Below, piece after piece: positions 616 to 7,120 of a stretch of DNA of 64,000 nt. The position numbers were made by a program, and so were the translations under genes. Source of the stretch: Bacilli bacterium (GTDB lineage: Bacteria > Bacillota_I > Bacilli_A > RFN20 > CAG-826); the NCBI GenBank assembly GCA_017447165.1, contig JAFSOD010000004.1:305267-369266 (forward strand). Reading direction: 5' to 3'. Position 1 is the first letter of the stretch. Each line of letters begins with the position of its first letter. The notes beneath the pieces were generated by a model. The model worked only from the letters and a program-made list of their open reading frames with translations, did no database searches and was not told the DNA's origin.

Positions 616-703
616 TTTCCTATACGGGCACATATGTAATAGAATAATAGCGCTGGTGAGCGAATACATATACGCTCTCTACGTGCCTTATAGGAGGAAA
701 AAT

Positions 704-3349
704 ATGGCTGAAAAGAAATATGTTTACCCCTTTGATGAAGCCTATGGATTAGGTAAAGAACTCTTAGGTGGTAAAGGTGCTGGTTTAGCAGAAATGACCC
801 ATATCGGCGTTCCTGTTCCAGAAGGATTTACAATCACTACTGAAGCTTGCACCCTTTATTATGACAGTGGAAAGAAAATCCCAGAATTTGTTAAAGAACA
901 AATCTTCGCGGCAATTAAAGATGTCGAAAAGAAAACCGGAAAAACATTCGGTGGAGAACATAATCCACTCTTAGTTTCTGTCAGATCTGGTGCTCGTGTC
1001 AGTATGCCAGGTATGATGGACACAATCTTAAACTTAGGTTTAAATGATGTTACTGCTGCTGCTCTTGCAAGAGAAACAGGCAACGAAAGATTTGCATTAG
1101 ACAGCTTCAGAAGATTCATCCTCATGTTCACAAACATCGCTAAAGGTCATCCAAGAACCGAAATGGATAAGATGCTTGATGATTTAAAAGAATCAAGAGG
1201 ATACAAATTAGACACAGAAGTCACTACAGAAGAATTAAAAGTTTTAGTGGCTAAATACAAGGAATACTACAAGAAAACATTCGGTGAAGAATTCCCAACT
1301 GATCCAAAAGATCAATTAATGGAAGCTGTTGCCGCGGTCTTTAGAAGCTGGGACAACCCAAGAGCGAATATTTACCGTATGCAATATTCCATTCCATATT
1401 CATGGGGAACTGCCGTTAACGTGCAATCCATGGCCTTTGGTAACAAGGGTGAGACTTCTGGTACAGGTGTTGCTTTCTCTAGAAACGCTGCAACTGGAGA
1501 AAAAGAAATCTCCGCTGAATATTTACCAAACGCTCAAGGTGAAGACGTTGTTGCTGGTATCCGTACCCCACTTCACATTGATGAATTAAAAAGAAGAATG
1601 CCTGAAGTCTATGAACAATTCGTCAAGACTATCAAAAACATGGAACTCCACTACCGCGATATGCAAGATATGGAATTCACTGTTGAAGAAGGCAAATTAT
1701 ACTTCTTACAAACTAGATCTGGAAAAAGAACACCTGCTGCAGCCTTAAAGATGGCGTGTGACATGGTTGATGAAGGATTAATTACCAAAGAAGAAGCTGT
1801 CTTAAGAATTGATCCAGTTTCATTTGATAAACTATTATTACCTAACTTCGATAAAGATGATTTAGCAAAAGCTAAAGACAGATTAGTCGCTAAAGGTAAC
1901 CCAGCTGGCCCAGGAGCAGGAACCGGTGCTATCGCCTTCACTGCTGAAGAAGCTGAAAGAAGACACGCTGCTGGAGAAAAGGTAGTTCTTGTTAGAGCAG
2001 AAACTTCCCCAGAAGACCTTGCTGGTATGATTGCTTGCGAAGGTATTCTCACTATGAGAGGTGGTATGACTTCTCACGCTGCCGTTGTTGCTCGTGGTAT
2101 GGGTAAATGCTGTATCACTGGTTGTGCTGCTGCCATCATTGATGAAGAAGCCAGAACCTTAAAGATTGGCGATAAAGTTTACACCGATAAAGATGTCTTA
2201 TCCTTAGACGGAAGCACAGGTTGTGTTTACGAAGGCGACATCAAGAAAGTTGCACCAGATCTATCCTCAGGTAACTTTGGTAGATTAATGGGTTGGGTTG
2301 ATGAAGCCCGTGACTTAGCAGTTAGAGCTAACGCTGATACACCTAGAGATGCACATCAAGCTAAAGTCTTTGGTGCTCAAGGTATCGGACTTTGTAGAAC
2401 AGAACATATGTTCTTCGATAAAGACAAAATCTTCTCCTTCAGAAAGATGATTCTTGCTGAAACTAAAGAAGAAAGAGTCGCTGCTTTAGCAGAAATCGAA
2501 CCATTACAACAAAAAGACTTCGAAGGTTTATACGAAGAGATGGGCAACCTCAACGTTAATGTCCGTTTACTCGATCCACCTCTACACGAATTCTTACCTC
2601 AAGAAGAAGATAAGATTGCCGAACTTGCTAGAGCAACCGGTCACTCTGTCGAATATATCCACAAGAGAATTGATGAATTACACGAATTCAACCCAATGAT
2701 GGGTCATAGAGGCTGCCGTTTAGACGTCTCCTATCCTGAAATTGGTGAAATGCAAACCCGCGCTATTATTAAAGCTGCTATCGCTGTTAATAAGAGATGT
2801 GGATTACATGTTGAACCAGAAATCATGGTCCCACTTACCTTAGACTTAAGAGAAATGAAATTCGTTAAGGCTATCGTTTGTAAGACTGCTGATGAAGTCA
2901 TCAAAGCTGCTGGAGTCAATCTCAAATACCATGTTGGTACTATGATTGAAATTCCACGTGCTGCATTACTCTCAGATGAAATCGCTCAAGAAGCAGAATT
3001 CTTCTCATTTGGTACAAATGACTTAACCCAAATGACATTCGGATTCTCTCGTGATGATGCATCTAAATTCTTGCCAGATTACTACAGCAATAAGATCTTA
3101 GAAGAAGATCCATTCAAGACCTTAGATCAACACGGTGTTGGTAAGTTAGTTGAACTCTCCGTCAAACAAGGTAGAGCTACTAGACCTGACTTACACATTG
3201 GTGTCTGTGGTGAAACTGGTGGTGAGGCAAACTCCATTGAGTTCTACCACAAAGTCGGATTAGATTACGTCTCTTGTTCTCCATTTAGAGTCCCAGTTGC
3301 TAGACTCGCTGCTGCACAAGCCGCAATCAAATTCCCAAGAAAGAAATAA
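704..3349 (+). CDS. ppdK: Pyruvate, phosphate dikinase
   Basis: The enzyme interconverts pyruvate + ATP + Pi and phosphoenolpyruvate + AMP + PPi in the cytosol. I chose the ATG at 704 because AGGAGG lies 6 bases before it and the protein then begins MAEKKYVYPF, the usual start of the family; 881 residues is normal. Visible signatures are the N-terminal nucleotide-binding GGKGAGLAEM, the phosphohistidine loop GGMTSHAAVVARG with His458, and the C-terminal PEP/pyruvate site CGETGGE with Cys835. A possible -10 TAGAAT lies at 640-645. In organisms with limited respiration the enzyme often works as a PPi-linked pyruvate kinase. It is a single-gene unit ending at the hairpin at 3375-3400. Confidence 0.95.
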   Translation: MAEKKYVYPFDEAYGLGKELLGGKGAGLAEMTHIGVPVPEGFTITTEACTLYYDSGKKIPEFVKEQIFAAIKDVEKKTGKTFGGEHNPLLVSVRSGARVSMPGMMDTILNLGLNDVTAAALARETGNERFALDSFRRFILMFTNIAKGHPRTEMDKMLDDLKESRGYKLDTEVTTEELKVLVAKYKEYYKKTFGEEFPTDPKDQLMEAVAAVFRSWDNPRANIYRMQYSIPYSWGTAVNVQSMAFGNKGETSGTGVAFSRNAATGEKEISAEYLPNAQGEDVVAGIRTPLHIDELKRRMPEVYEQFVKTIKNMELHYRDMQDMEFTVEEGKLYFLQTRSGKRTPAAALKMACDMVDEGLITKEEAVLRIDPVSFDKLLLPNFDKDDLAKAKDRLVAKGNPAGPGAGTGAIAFTAEEAERRHAAGEKVVLVRAETSPEDLAGMIACEGILTMRGGMTSHAAVVARGMGKCCITGCAAAIIDEEARTLKIGDKVYTDKDVLSLDGSTGCVYEGDIKKVAPDLSSGNFGRLMGWVDEARDLAVRANADTPRDAHQAKVFGAQGIGLCRTEHMFFDKDKIFSFRKMILAETKEERVAALAEIEPLQQKDFEGLYEEMGNLNVNVRLLDPPLHEFLPQEEDKIAELARATGHSVEYIHKRIDELHEFNPMMGHRGCRLDVSYPEIGEMQTRAIIKAAIAVNKRCGLHVEPEIMVPLTLDLREMKFVKAIVCKTADEVIKAAGVNLKYHVGTMIEIPRAALLSDEIAQEAEFFSFGTNDLTQMTFGFSRDDASKFLPDYYSNKILEEDPFKTLDQHGVGKLVELSVKQGRATRPDLHIGVCGETGGEANSIEFYHKVGLDYVSCSPFRVPVARLAAAQAAIKFPRKK

Positions 3350-3411: not shown

Positions 3412-3660
3412 TTACCAATCAAGTTCGCTATATTCTGTTAACAAAGAAATATCTTCTTTACTGCCTTCTAAAATCGAGTCTATAAGGCCTTTTTGCGAAT
3501 ATAAATACAGAGTTTCTTTTATTCCTCTATATTCGCTTTCTGAAAGCATTATTAAATTGCCTTGTTCAGTCGTAATAAGAAACGACTTGTTTTCCTTTAC
3601 AACCTCTTTAATATACTTTTGAAAATTTTTTTCTAGTGTTTTGATATTAATTTTATTCAT
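3412..3660 (-). CDS. Phd/YefM-family antitoxin, orphan
   Basis: This 82-residue protein has an N-terminal DNA-binding half (NIKTLEKNFQKYIKEV, then SFLITTEQGNLIMLSESEYRGIKETLYL) and an acidic C-terminal tail of the kind that wraps a toxin. The line ETLYL-S-GLIDSILEG resembles YefM. A YoeB/Txe or Doc toxin normally follows, but here the next element downstream is the terminator shared with ppdK, so the toxin is missing. A 7-base inverted repeat lies just upstream of the ATG. It may be a relic, or it may act in trans on a toxin elsewhere. Confidence 0.8.
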   Translation of the reverse strand: MNKINIKTLEKNFQKYIKEVVKENKSFLITTEQGNLIMLSESEYRGIKETLYLYSQKGLIDSILEGSKEDISLLTEYSELDW

Positions 3661-3661
3661 A

Positions 3662-3684
3662 ATCTACAATTCAATTATGTAGAT
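3662..3684 (-). promoter_or_regulatory. Palindromic operator upstream of the antitoxin gene
   Basis: ATCTACA (3662-3668) and TGTAGAT (3678-3684) form a perfect 7-base inverted repeat with a 9-base spacer, starting one base before the antitoxin ATG. Phd/YefM proteins autorepress from such sites. There is no clear Shine-Dalgarno sequence before the ATG. Confidence 0.5.
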
Positions 3685-3843
3685 AAATCAAAAAGAATCA
3701 AGAAAAATAACTTATTTATTTGTGGAATAAAAATTGTGGAGAAATTCTATCCCAATATTTATATTAATATTTCTATTTAATTAATACTTATGTATATAAC
3801 TAAATATAAATATAGGGATAACTATGTGGAGAAAAAATAATCA

Positions 3844-3872
3844 TTGATTATTTAACTTTTATTAGATACCAT
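3844..3872 (+). promoter_or_regulatory. Sigma-70-type promoter of the structured RNA
   Basis: TTGATT (3844-3849) and TACCAT (3867-3872) are separated by exactly 17 bases. The predicted start at about 3879 lies just before the first hairpin of the RNA. Confidence 0.45.
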
Positions 3873-3878
3873 TAGCTA

Positions 3879-4120
3879 GCAACTCGACAAAGACAAGTCG
3901 TTAAAACTCGGAACGGATAACCTCCCAGACTATAGAAATATAGAAAGGAGGTACGCTACAACGAAAAACGAAAATATAGAGTTGATAAAGCTCCTTAGGA
4001 TCGCGCTTCTTTGCCTTCTAATTTGTTTGTTAGGAAATCTAATCGAATAAAAAAGAAGTCTCTGACTCACTAACCATAAAAGTGTCTAGGAGGCTTCCGT
4101 TCTTCTGGTTATATTATAAC
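3879..4120 (+). ncRNA. Structured RNA with a hairpin that hides a Shine-Dalgarno sequence
   Basis: A short 5' hairpin (CGAC 3885-3888 with GTCG 3897-3900) is followed by a longer one: ACCTCC (3920-3925) pairs with GGAGGT (3947-3952), and inside it CTATA (3930-3934) pairs with TATAG (3939-3943) capped by a GAAA tetraloop. The sequestered GGAGG is a strong ribosome-binding site placed 9 bases before the candidate peptide frame at 3961. A locked ribosome site before a tiny hydrophobic frame is typical of type I toxin mRNAs. The RNA end is not defined. I recognised no known RNA family. Confidence 0.45.
3961..4050 (+). CDS. Candidate small hydrophobic peptide (type I toxin-like)
   Basis: The frame ending with TAA at 4048-4050 encodes a Leu/Ile/Cys-rich membrane-spanning stretch (LLRIALLCLLICLLGNLIE) preceded by charged residues. 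Read from ACG at 3961, which is 9 bases after GGAGG, it has 29 residues; read from TTG at 3982 it has 22. No ATG is available, so the start is uncertain and translation is not proven. The size, hydrophobicity and sequestered ribosome site suggest a type I toxin or small membrane regulator. It could instead be chance coding within a non-coding RNA. Confidence 0.35.
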   Translation, partial: TKNENIELIKLLRIALLCLLICLLGNLIE

Positions 4121-4140
4121 ATACGATTTAGGTTTTTGAT

Positions 4141-4194
4141 ATAAAAAATAAAAGAGCCTCATAGCTACATAACCCAAGTGCTTGTGAGGACTCT
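4141..4194 (-). terminator. Strong minus-strand terminator, possible end of an antisense RNA
   Basis: On the minus strand a long hairpin (arms 4153-4165 and 4180-4194, about 13 pairs with small bulges) is followed by TTTTATTTTTT. It is separate from the terminator of the gene at 4271, so a short minus-strand RNA probably ends here, facing the toxin-like RNA. Confidence 0.6.
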
Positions 4195-4235
4195 GTTCTT
4201 ATGATTAAATCATAACAAATAATTCTCAAATGAAA

Positions 4236-4270
4236 ATAAAAAAATGAGGCATTCGTTAATTCGGGCGCCT
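4236..4270 (-). terminator. Terminator of the GH94-related gene
   Basis: AGGCATTCG (4247-4255) pairs with CGGGCGCCT (4262-4270) with one mismatch and a 6-base loop. On the minus strand a T-run follows (plus-strand A-run 4236-4244). It begins right at the stop codon of the gene at 4271. Confidence 0.7.
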
Positions 4271-7120
4271 TTATTTAATATAAACAATTAATTCAGTTAA
4301 TTCCTTGTTTCTGAGTTTATATGGTAGTTCATTAATATCAATCCCATCAGCAAAATACTCTAGTTCTGTTTGTCTATCAAAATCTTTGTTTTGTTCGTTA
4401 ACAAATGTGATTGAGGTGTTAAATAAAGTGACAGCTAGCTTTTTATCAACAAAAAGTTCTATTGGAATGTGAGGCGCAAAAGATAATTTTAATTTTCCAT
4501 CAACAACTTTATAAATGTGTTCCCCGAAGAATAATAGTTGATACATATTAATAATTTCAGTATTAGCCCCGGTTAATCTAGCATAATTACCACTTCCATG
4601 AAGATTGCTATTTGGATGATTAGTTGGAACAATAAAAGATACATTTTCAAATATTGGCCTTCCATAAATTTCAGGATCCATAAAACAAGGGATATTTGTT
4701 TTCGCATATTTAAAGAATTCTACATAGTGTCCACCTTTTAAGAGGCCTAATAAGTATTTGAATGTCATGTGCAAGAAATCTGATTCTCTTTCTAACCATC
4801 CTGGCGCAAATAATGTGGTTCTTCCAATTTCTTTGCTAACATTTTCTAATGATTCACTAGTTTTAAATATTTTAAGTGTTTTATCAAATAAATCACTTTT
4901 TTCAATTAACGATATTTCATTCTTTGAAAAATATTCTTTTCCTAATTTAGCTAATCTAGCTGGAGCTTCAAGGAAATTAGGTAAAAACTCGCTCTTAAAT
5001 GCAAGAACTTTAATTCCGTCTGTGTCATCATATTTATCAACATTATTTATGATATATGTAGGAATAATGCCGTCATTTAATATTTGACTTTCTTTTATCC
5101 CTTTTTCTAAAACGTTTTCATATTTATTTAAGAAATCAATAACATCGTCATGATTGATCTTTATTAGTGATGTAAACAAGCGATATTCATTCTCAAACTC
5201 TTCTATATAGTTATTAACTTTATCCCAATAATTAAATCCATCAATTTCTAAGTCTTTGACCTTATTGAAAAGCTTATTTGATGCTTCAATTAGGCTAATA
5301 GAGATATTTTCTTTTAACAAAGGTTTTAATAGTTTAATTAATCTTAATAACTCAATAGATTCGTTCATAGATGAGGCAATTAACCCAGGAAGTCCATTAC
5401 ATGAATCATTCCATCCAGGTTTATCAGCATACATCTCAATTCCTAATTGCCTATAATCTAAAGAGCAGACCTTTTTAAGTATTAAATCAAATAATTTACT
5501 AGCTAAATTAACTTTGATAACTTGCTCATTATGCATAAGCCAATTGTGTTTCGCATCAGTCTTTACTAAAGAATTATATTGTCTAATACCTTGTTCTGTT
5601 TTCACATAACGTTCTTTTCTAGGCTTGATATGTATTCCAGAATCATAAAAGCGATATATTTCTTTTGATAGCAATTCATCAACTTTATCAGGATAAACTG
5701 AAAGATAGTTTTCTAATAAATCAATATTATAAACCCAGTGATCAATCCAATATCCTTCTTTATACTCAGCGTTAATGTCGTAGATATCTTTATTTTTAAC
5801 GTAATTTAAAGCATCTTTAAAATTTGATAGTTCTTTATTTAAAACCATTGTATCCACTATTAAAGGATTAAATCCATTTTCCTCAATTAATGACATAAAT
5901 AAATAAAGATTATAATTATTAATTTCTGGTTCAATTAATAAATCATTTCTACGGTTTTGATTTATATCTCGGTAGTTACCTAATCCACTAGAAAAGTATG
6001 TCGACGGAATATAAAAAGCATTGTAGTCTCTTTCCATATCGCCATGCTTCCTAGAATATAAATAAATTGGTTTAGAATTTATAATGGTTGGAAAGCCACC
6101 CCGCACTCCGTTATCAAGGAAAGATTGTCTAATATAACTATCTAATTTTGGACTGCTTGTGTGTACTTTTGGAAGCAAAGAATCAATAAGCATTTCTGCA
6201 TCAAAAATCATCGAATTTAACGATTTAAAGCTTAAATTGCCGCTAATTTTGATAAATTCTTCTTTGTTTTGTGCTACTGTATAGACACTTATAAATTCAA
6301 TAGATTCATCTTTTTCTAACTCTTTTTCAGTATAAGAAAACGCTCCTAAAATCTTGTTTTGTCTAGCCTGGCTTTTAGCCCCATAAACGATCTTATCATA
6401 GCCTTTGAAATTGATAAAAGACGAGTCAGAAAATACAACATCTGGATCTATGATATAACCAAGTTTTTTATCTAATTTATCAACTGAGAAATATCCGCTT
6501 CCATCACTTTTGAAAACAGCCTTTGAGTCATCTCCGCCACGGTTATTATATTTGAACCATGGAGATGTTCTATCTAATTCTGCCTCGGTATAAGCAGCAA
6601 CCAATGTAGTGAGCTCATGGTACTCGTAATTAGAAACACCTTTTGGTAAGAAAATAGGAAGACCATCTACTACTTTAAAGGTATTTTTATCTCTTTTATT
6701 AACAATACAAATTTTTCTAATTAATCCAGGATAAGGTTTGTGAGATATTGTAGAATAGACAACTTCCATTCGATATAAATCATTATCCTCTACTAAAGTT
6801 ATTTTGCTTTTTTCAATTATTAGTTTCTGATTATTTGGAGTAACAAATGGTTGATATCTATTATTTCCGATTTCAATTAATGTTCTAAAAGATTTTAAAG
6901 GAATGTTTCTATAGGCAAGAAAGGCACTATCAAATGGGGTAAGGATTGAATCTTTATTATCTACTCCAAATCCACCCATGCATTGACCAACATTAGCATA
7001 AAAAGCCCAAAGAGGTTTTCCATCCATTCCAGCAATAGACGGCAAAAAAGATGAGAATTTTTTTGCACTAAGATAGTCCTGTATAACAAACCTTTCTCCG
7101 TCTACTGAATACTTAACCAT
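4271..7120 (-). CDS. GH94-related (cellobiose phosphorylase-like) protein
   Basis: This 949-residue cytosolic protein has no signal peptide. It shows the pattern of the phosphorylase-like (alpha/alpha)6-barrel proteins: an N-terminal beta-rich region, then GVRGGFPTI, WIDHWVYN, the motif KPGWNDSCNGLPGL with the Trp-Asn-Asp of the catalytic aspartate region, and near the C-terminus PGWLERESDFLHMTFKYLLG and ANTEIINMYQLLF. The closest families I know are annotated as cellobiose phosphorylases, but it differs clearly from the two GH94 genes at 11.0-16.0 kb, and the substrate is unknown. It has its own promoter overlapping an inverted repeat, and the promoter spacing predicts a leaderless mRNA. It diverges from the sugar ABC ATPase gene. 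Confidence 0.65.
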   Translation of the reverse strand: MVKYSVDGERFVIQDYLSAKKFSSFLPSIAGMDGKPLWAFYANVGQCMGGFGVDNKDSILTPFDSAFLAYRNIPLKSFRTLIEIGNNRYQPFVTPNNQKLIIEKSKITLVEDNDLYRMEVVYSTISHKPYPGLIRKICIVNKRDKNTFKVVDGLPIFLPKGVSNYEYHELTTLVAAYTEAELDRTSPWFKYNNRGGDDSKAVFKSDGSGYFSVDKLDKKLGYIIDPDVVFSDSSFINFKGYDKIVYGAKSQARQNKILGAFSYTEKELEKDESIEFISVYTVAQNKEEFIKISGNLSFKSLNSMIFDAEMLIDSLLPKVHTSSPKLDSYIRQSFLDNGVRGGFPTIINSKPIYLYSRKHGDMERDYNAFYIPSTYFSSGLGNYRDINQNRRNDLLIEPEINNYNLYLFMSLIEENGFNPLIVDTMVLNKELSNFKDALNYVKNKDIYDINAEYKEGYWIDHWVYNIDLLENYLSVYPDKVDELLSKEIYRFYDSGIHIKPRKERYVKTEQGIRQYNSLVKTDAKHNWLMHNEQVIKVNLASKLFDLILKKVCSLDYRQLGIEMYADKPGWNDSCNGLPGLIASSMNESIELLRLIKLLKPLLKENISISLIEASNKLFNKVKDLEIDGFNYWDKVNNYIEEFENEYRLFTSLIKINHDDVIDFLNKYENVLEKGIKESQILNDGIIPTYIINNVDKYDDTDGIKVLAFKSEFLPNFLEAPARLAKLGKEYFSKNEISLIEKSDLFDKTLKIFKTSESLENVSKEIGRTTLFAPGWLERESDFLHMTFKYLLGLLKGGHYVEFFKYAKTNIPCFMDPEIYGRPIFENVSFIVPTNHPNSNLHGSGNYARLTGANTEIINMYQLLFFGEHIYKVVDGKLKLSFAPHIPIELFVDKKLAVTLFNTSITFVNEQNKDFDRQTELEYFADGIDINELPYKLRNKELTELIVYIK

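Follow-up and report, generated by a model that had tools for sequence, protein, structure and literature searches.

Between a pyruvate phosphate dikinase gene (656-3349, + strand) and a large gene on the opposite strand (4271-7120), the window, by which we mean the whole 64,000-nucleotide stretch of a Bacilli genome analyzed here, carries a short locus that an initial annotation read as a type I toxin-like transcript with a sequestered ribosome site and a non-AUG start. The locus raises three questions: whether this arrangement belongs to a real gene family, how its translation would be controlled, and whether this copy still makes its peptide. The reading we favor, with a probability of roughly 70%, is that the locus belongs to a new type I toxin-antitoxin-like family and that translation of the toxin from this copy is probably lost or much reduced, whereas its antisense gene is kept.

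Parts of the locus

The promoter-like pair, the 5' hairpin, the GAAA-capped hairpin that joins ACCTCC to GGAGGT, and the peptide frame are all present where the initial annotation placed them (Table 1). Three features had escaped it: the antisense gene, the pairing between the 5' and 3' ends, and the replacement of an ATG by the ACG. The proposed promoter stood in part; the pair exists and is kept in a syntenic relative, but it is weak and was not listed by an automatic scan for consensus promoters. No TATAAT-like box was found in the window copy at the position where other members carry the sense -10. Since a clear sense -10 is missing from many other family members as well, its absence here is a weak point when taken alone. 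A regulatory leader of the neighboring gene was ruled out, as the downstream gene lies on the opposite strand and the unit stands alone.

Table 1. Features of the unit and the adjacent antisense gene in the window; percentages of paired cells, double changes and unit counts refer to 115 distinct units
Feature	Position	Strand	Support or remark
Candidate sense promoter, weak, TTGATT-17-TACCAT (TTGATT 3844-3849, spacer 17 nt, TACCAT 3867-3872)	3844-3872	+	Pair also kept in syntenic G018 copy (L045)
H1, 5' terminal hairpin CGAC(8 nt)GTCG	3885-3900	+	96% of cells paired
Leader: 5' arm GAACGGAT (3911-3918) and anti-SD ACCTCC (3920-3925)	3911-3925	+	Covaries with 3' arm and with SD
H2, anti-SD:SD hairpin; ACCTCC (3920-3925) pairs with GGAGGT (3947-3952) as CTATAGAAATATAG stem under GAAA cap	3920-3952	+	96-97% of cells paired; double changes
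Shine-Dalgarno (SD) GGAGGT	3947-3952	+	8 nt to 3961; spacing matches relatives
Hydrophobic peptide frame, 29 codons, (ACG)KNENIELIKLLRIALLCLLICLLGNLIE; ACG 3961, in-frame TTG 3982, TAA stop 4048-4050, ATG absent	3961-4050	+	Family pN/pS 0.33; ACG at relatives' ATG position
3' untranslated region, probably bidirectional terminator	4055-4108	+	Scan flags 4086-4108 on +; antisense fold
3' arm: SD-like GGAGG (4089-4093) and TTCCGTTC (4095-4102), leader complement	4085-4102	+	H3 covariation: 98% of cells paired, double changes in 7 of 8 pairs
Convergent antisense RNA gene, about 58 nt, complement of sense 3' end	4049-4106	-	Model R2 (antisense) match 4042-4115, E 7.5e-11 for the window's genome
Antisense extended -10 promoter TGTTATAAT	4113-4121	-	TATAAT at antisense start in 102/115 units, TGnTATAAT in 83/115
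Orphan antisense RNA gene, with promoter and terminator	4140-4217	-	R2 match 4140-4211, E 1.6e-8 for the genome

Distribution of the family

By sequence comparison, positions 3885-4118 are one unit of a conserved family. A DNA search of the genus gave matches in 7 of 19 genomes, and a 21-base pattern taken from the 5' end (GACAAAGNNNNGTCNNNAAAACTCGGA) hit 36 stretches in 84,980 species genomes. All matches except one were in metagenome-assembled genomes (MAGs) labelled Bacilli, Bacillales or Erysipelotrichaceae, and the sample names of many of these MAGs refer to the rumen or forestomach. The exception, a Bacteroidales hit (L028), was discarded as a chance match, with no unit following it. The covariance search of related genomes that the initial annotation had proposed was productive: within one Bacilli family, model R1 detected units in 52 of 224 genomes, spread over 11 of 35 genera. 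We collected 115 distinct units from these genomes, mostly rumen MAGs. The units often stand in tandem arrays, with five in G014, six in G075 and, in G154, four in succession on a single contig; the genome of the window contains a single sense unit but two antisense genes. Extending the R1 search to the whole order added no genome, and in a sample of the class it gave weak matches only, with no clear member found outside the Bacilli family. One of these weak matches, L110, was ruled out as a member and assigned to a different family of similar anatomy.

Rfam gave no match to the unit at gathering or lax thresholds, and no Pfam or NCBIfam model matched the peptide, in line with the earlier statement that the locus fits no recognized family. 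Searches of plasmids (tblastn) and phages (blastn) gave no match, and the GACAAAGNNNNGTCNNNAAAACTCGGA pattern was not found in the viral contigs searched; nothing therefore points to known mobile elements as carriers. On these comparisons, a previously uncatalogued family of RNA-controlled small-peptide modules is well supported.

Helices and covariation

Besides H1 and H2, the units share a long-distance helix, H3, in which leader GAACGGAG pairs with 3' CUCCGUUC, and RNAalifold recovers all three helices unaided. In a 40-row alignment made up of the three helix words, double changes occurred in 6 of 8 H3 pairs (20 sequences) and in 2 of 7 H2 pairs (13 sequences), the H2 words having been picked by script partly for best complementarity. 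Cleaner support therefore comes from H3 and from the fold that RNAalifold gave unaided. For H3 and H2 alike, complementarity within a sequence's own unit exceeded that in all 10,000 of 10,000 permutations. Across the 115 distinct units, 94.8% of cells were paired and double changes were found in 20 of 22 pairs, counts that lean towards the model because the alignment was fitted to R1; many of the units were outside model building. One H1 pair, for example, is AU in 57 units, UA in 42 and GC in 11. The covariation score was 0.339, versus 0.185 in shuffles, none of which (0 of 500) reached the observed score, and sliding the alignment reduced it to 0.09 or less.

Arm sequence differs between units, some having GAACGGAG arms and others GAGTGGAG. 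Among 77 readable units, the leader base that follows CCTC fits the SD in all 77 and the 3' arm in 58, and in both cases the agreement is far above permutation. Leader, SD and 3' arm have thus evolved in concert. Direct pairing of the antisense with the SD would also account for the X-Z covariation.

The same comparisons decide whether the locus could be a chance arrangement of hairpins next to a random hydrophobic frame. The RNA from 3876 to 4112 folds at -59.7 kcal/mol, and none of 200 dinucleotide shuffles did as well; the z score of this single-sequence fold is only -3.2, which is what such a reading has in its favor. It is refuted by conservation, covariation and coding selection in more than 100 units, and we consider it vanishingly improbable. 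The existence of the family and of its helices is firm on comparative grounds.

The peptide

The family peptide is 25 to 29 amino acids long and cationic, with a consensus of approximately MKDDxKExLKLLKIALICLLLxLLALLLK: a cationic start, a single hydrophobic helix and a near-invariant Cys, followed by a C-terminal Lys or Arg (K/R29) in 47 of 53 relatives. Over 112 pairs, pN/pS was 0.33 and differences were distributed 662/503/1207 over the three codon positions, an excess at the third position; by this measure the peptide is under purifying selection. The conserved peptide and the compensatory stem changes that the initial annotation had named as things to look for were therefore both found. 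The frame starts with ATG in 80 of the 115 units, TTG in 14, GTG in 4, CTG in 1 and ACG in 2 (the window copy and L131), one further copy (L096) is frameshifted, and 13 of the 115 model matches have no intact frame. In L147, L096, L129, L150, L164, L127 and L144, the toxin frame is deleted, frameshifted, stopped or replaced, and the antisense end is still recognizable.

By sequence and folding, the units combine a conserved small hydrophobic peptide, an antisense gene and a ribosome site closed by structure, and a type I toxin-antitoxin plan is supported on this basis, with toxicity putative. The initial annotation's proposal of a type I toxin-like transcript with a sequestered ribosome site has gained strong support from conservation, covariation, coding selection and the convergent antisense. 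A different role, that of a small regulatory membrane peptide under antisense control, would agree with the lack of a match to known toxin models in Pfam and NCBIfam. An addiction module better fits the tandem arrays, the patchy distribution, the broken frames that retain an antisense and the orphan antisense genes, and we regard a purely regulatory peptide as distinctly unlikely.

The antisense RNA and orphan antisense genes

Judged by sequence, nearly every unit ends in a convergent antisense gene. Its product is a short predicted RNA with a terminator-like hairpin and a T-run. Leader and 3' arm form an inverted repeat, and the 5' part of the antisense therefore repeats the mRNA leader (in the window, leader GAACGGATAACCTCCCAGAC and antisense GAACGGAAGCCTCCTAGAC). 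The second antisense gene of the window is an orphan: no sense leader was found within 200 nt of 4140-4211 on the minus strand, and no toxin partner in the genome. The orphan at 4140-4217 is conserved in G001 (L002), and solo antisense genes occur in G001 and about fifteen other genomes, including G039, G042, G141, G143 and the g31 genomes. These orphans may be leftovers of former units or guards against related ones.

A predicted strand-displacement switch

Predicted folds suggest how the helices could control translation. Without the 3' arm, anti-SD and SD pair with a probability of 0.95; at full length, the anti-SD instead pairs with the 3' region, with a median probability of 0.85. The average cost of opening the SD is 5.2 kcal/mol at full length, 9.7 kcal/mol after truncation, 9.7 kcal/mol with the arm occupied and 9.2 kcal/mol with the arm shuffled, these energies being equilibrium estimates for related sequences. 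The 3' arm is thus predicted to make the SD about 4.5 kcal/mol easier to open, and the advantage of the full-length form exceeds 1 kcal/mol in 64 of 69 units. Even at full length, the SD is mostly engaged in pairing with some partner (median unpaired 0.22).

The simplest reading of these models is a strand-displacement switch in which the nascent RNA is closed, the complete RNA can open, and antisense bound at the arm closes it again. In the nascent mRNA, the leader anti-SD would form the pairing with the SD that covariation shows, and translation would be shut. Once made, the 3' arm would pair with the leader from a GAACGGAG toehold and could displace the anti-SD; here, covariation shows the pairing, and folding energies argue for the displacement. 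The antisense, which has the stronger promoter, the leader's sequence and an exact complement of the arm, would capture the arm so that the leader recloses the SD. It may also pair with the SD directly, and the duplex would presumably be a target of RNase III. When the antisense is exhausted, a short cationic membrane peptide would be made that, by its resemblance to known toxins, might harm or slow the cell. That the switch works in this direction is predicted from equilibrium energies.

Such a switch runs opposite to a familiar one. In aapA/IsoA of Helicobacter pylori and in hok/Sok, nascent hairpins close the SD, a long-distance interaction between the 5' and 3' ends closes it in the full-length mRNA, and 3' trimming activates translation (PMC6733600). 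Applied here, this classical logic would have an inert, end-paired mRNA, activation by trimming, and an antisense that acts on the trimmed form. The hallmarks of 5'-3' pairing and SD-closing hairpins in the nascent RNA (PMC6733600) have counterparts in H3 and H2, an antisense is present as well, and the SD is never wholly free in the predicted folds. In contrast, the 3' arm resembles the SD rather than the anti-SD, and its removal makes the SD harder to open, raising the cost from 5.2 to 9.7 kcal/mol with an anti-SD:SD probability of 0.95. By energy prediction, the sign is the opposite of the classical one in 64 of 69 units, with the 3' arm opening the SD. We consider the classical logic unlikely for this family. 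The initial annotation's expectation that the mRNA must be processed before translation is unsupported on the same ground, since loss of the 3' end is predicted by folding to close the SD and not to open it.

Among described systems, the nearest logic is that of bsrG/SR4 of Bacillus subtilis, where toxin mRNA and antisense overlap at the 3' end of the former and binding far from the start extends sequestration of the SD (PMC6562991; PMC4147584). The 3'-end overlap is found here too, whereas no sequence match was found, the peptide is 25 to 29 amino acids of other sequence, and here the leader itself repeats the antisense sequence and pairs with the 3' arm, so that the SD would be closed by a leader anti-SD set free from the arm. 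The par system (RNA I-RNA II, Enterococcus faecalis pAD1) has similarly convergent RNAs with a common terminator region, a small membrane peptide and a non-AUG start, which is GUG in fst (PMC6562991); repeats let its antisense reach the 5' region of the toxin RNA, and the convergent RNAs share the terminator region (PMC4147584). Those repeats (DRa/DRb) are direct, whereas here they are inverted, lying in leader and 3' arm, and the antisense copies the leader. We found no direct repeats within 3660-4270, no match to a Pfam, NCBIfam or Rfam model of the Fst/Ldr (par) family, and no fst-type family at threshold. The txpA/RatA pair of B. subtilis shares the convergent order and the antisense over the 3' end, with RatA reported to act through degradation (PMC6562991), and differs in that there is no match in Pfam or Rfam. 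Models of the TxpA/BsrG group gave no match in Rfam, Pfam or NCBIfam.

We put forward tentatively, as somewhat less than an even bet, a broader proposal of reversed wiring: the 3' end of the mRNA would be an SD mimic that pulls off the anti-SD, an antisense copying the leader would remove the arm and turn translation off, sequence-unrelated families in another Bacilli family would follow the same plan, and orphan antisenses would confer immunity to related units. Should the reversed 5'-3' logic hold, 3' processing would not be a general activator of type I toxin mRNAs. The family offers more than 100 natural variants in uncultured rumen Bacilli, with tandem arrays, broken copies and orphan antitoxins, and these lead to clear predictions on specificity and decay.

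Is the window copy silenced?

The ACG at 3961 stands exactly where 80 relatives have ATG. The initial annotation was right that the window frame has no ATG; its suggestion that a non-AUG codon works as the start is not supported. Given the ATG, TTG, GTG or CTG of relatives at this site, loss or strong attenuation of the start is likelier than special initiation, and since the syntenic G018 copy has ATG, the loss would be recent on this scale. The window peptide also departs from the family at conserved sites (K6 to I, L26 to N and K/R29 to E), with loss of conserved charges. AapA1 has been reported to need its C-terminal Lys-Arg for toxicity (PMC10537873); in that light, the E29 change is no more than suggestive. 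Opening the SD of this copy is predicted to cost 6.1 versus 7.9 kcal/mol, a weak switch. The antisense, in turn, has an intact promoter and terminator. The likeliest reading is that the window holds a dead or nearly dead toxin gene beside a living antisense, and the 13 of 115 frameless matches and the recurring orphan antisenses count towards it. The frame is open, with pairwise pN/pS against its nearest members of 0.36 to 0.53, only a little above the family value; hence, the loss could be very recent or incomplete.

Alternatively, the window copy could be a working toxin gene translated from ACG or from the in-frame TTG, the weak start being an extra safety brake. Nineteen members begin with TTG, GTG or CTG, an independent ACG copy exists, and the GUG starts of yonT and fst are thought to lower translation (PMC6562991). 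Against this, the other departures pile up in the window copy, and a start at TTG 3982 would forfeit the conserved charged N-terminus. ACG is, moreover, a far weaker start than GTG or TTG. We find a working start doubtful. The second, independent ACG start is in L131 (1842-1925, G075), where the array neighbors start with ATG; having arisen twice, ACG could be a tolerated weak start.

Associated genes and similar units

An Xre-type HTH gene (HTH_3) closes 12 clusters of units (L038, L044, L018, L088, L022, L087, L091, L096, L039, L046, L085 and L170), and in all 12 the first sense unit or promoter is preceded by a GTTGT-N7-ACAAC-like palindrome, L022 and L085 fitting only a variant, by eye. 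Gene and palindrome together are possibly a protein repressor layer over the type I array. The window copy has neither.

L110 (1470-1760) and L114 (G320, another Bacilli family) contain a sequence-unrelated unit of the same anatomy, with a 30-amino-acid peptide (MKTKTFIVKILKLIAIILFLLSLLVAVIKI), complementarity between leader and 3' arm, and a convergent antisense promoter. Units of this type occur in 30 of 41 sampled genomes, many of the matches being confined to the antisense end. Their switch energetics are mixed (8.8 versus 9.5 for L110, 4.8 versus 9.7 for L114).

Upstream of the unit, a Phd/YefM-type antitoxin frame lies at 3412-3660 on the minus strand, with no obvious adjacent toxin gene. 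Between 3740 and 3840, the window carries a long imperfect palindrome with TTATCCACA-like ends. It is kept beside the locus in G018, occurs in G008 and G009 with no toxin unit after it, and has more partial copies within the genus.
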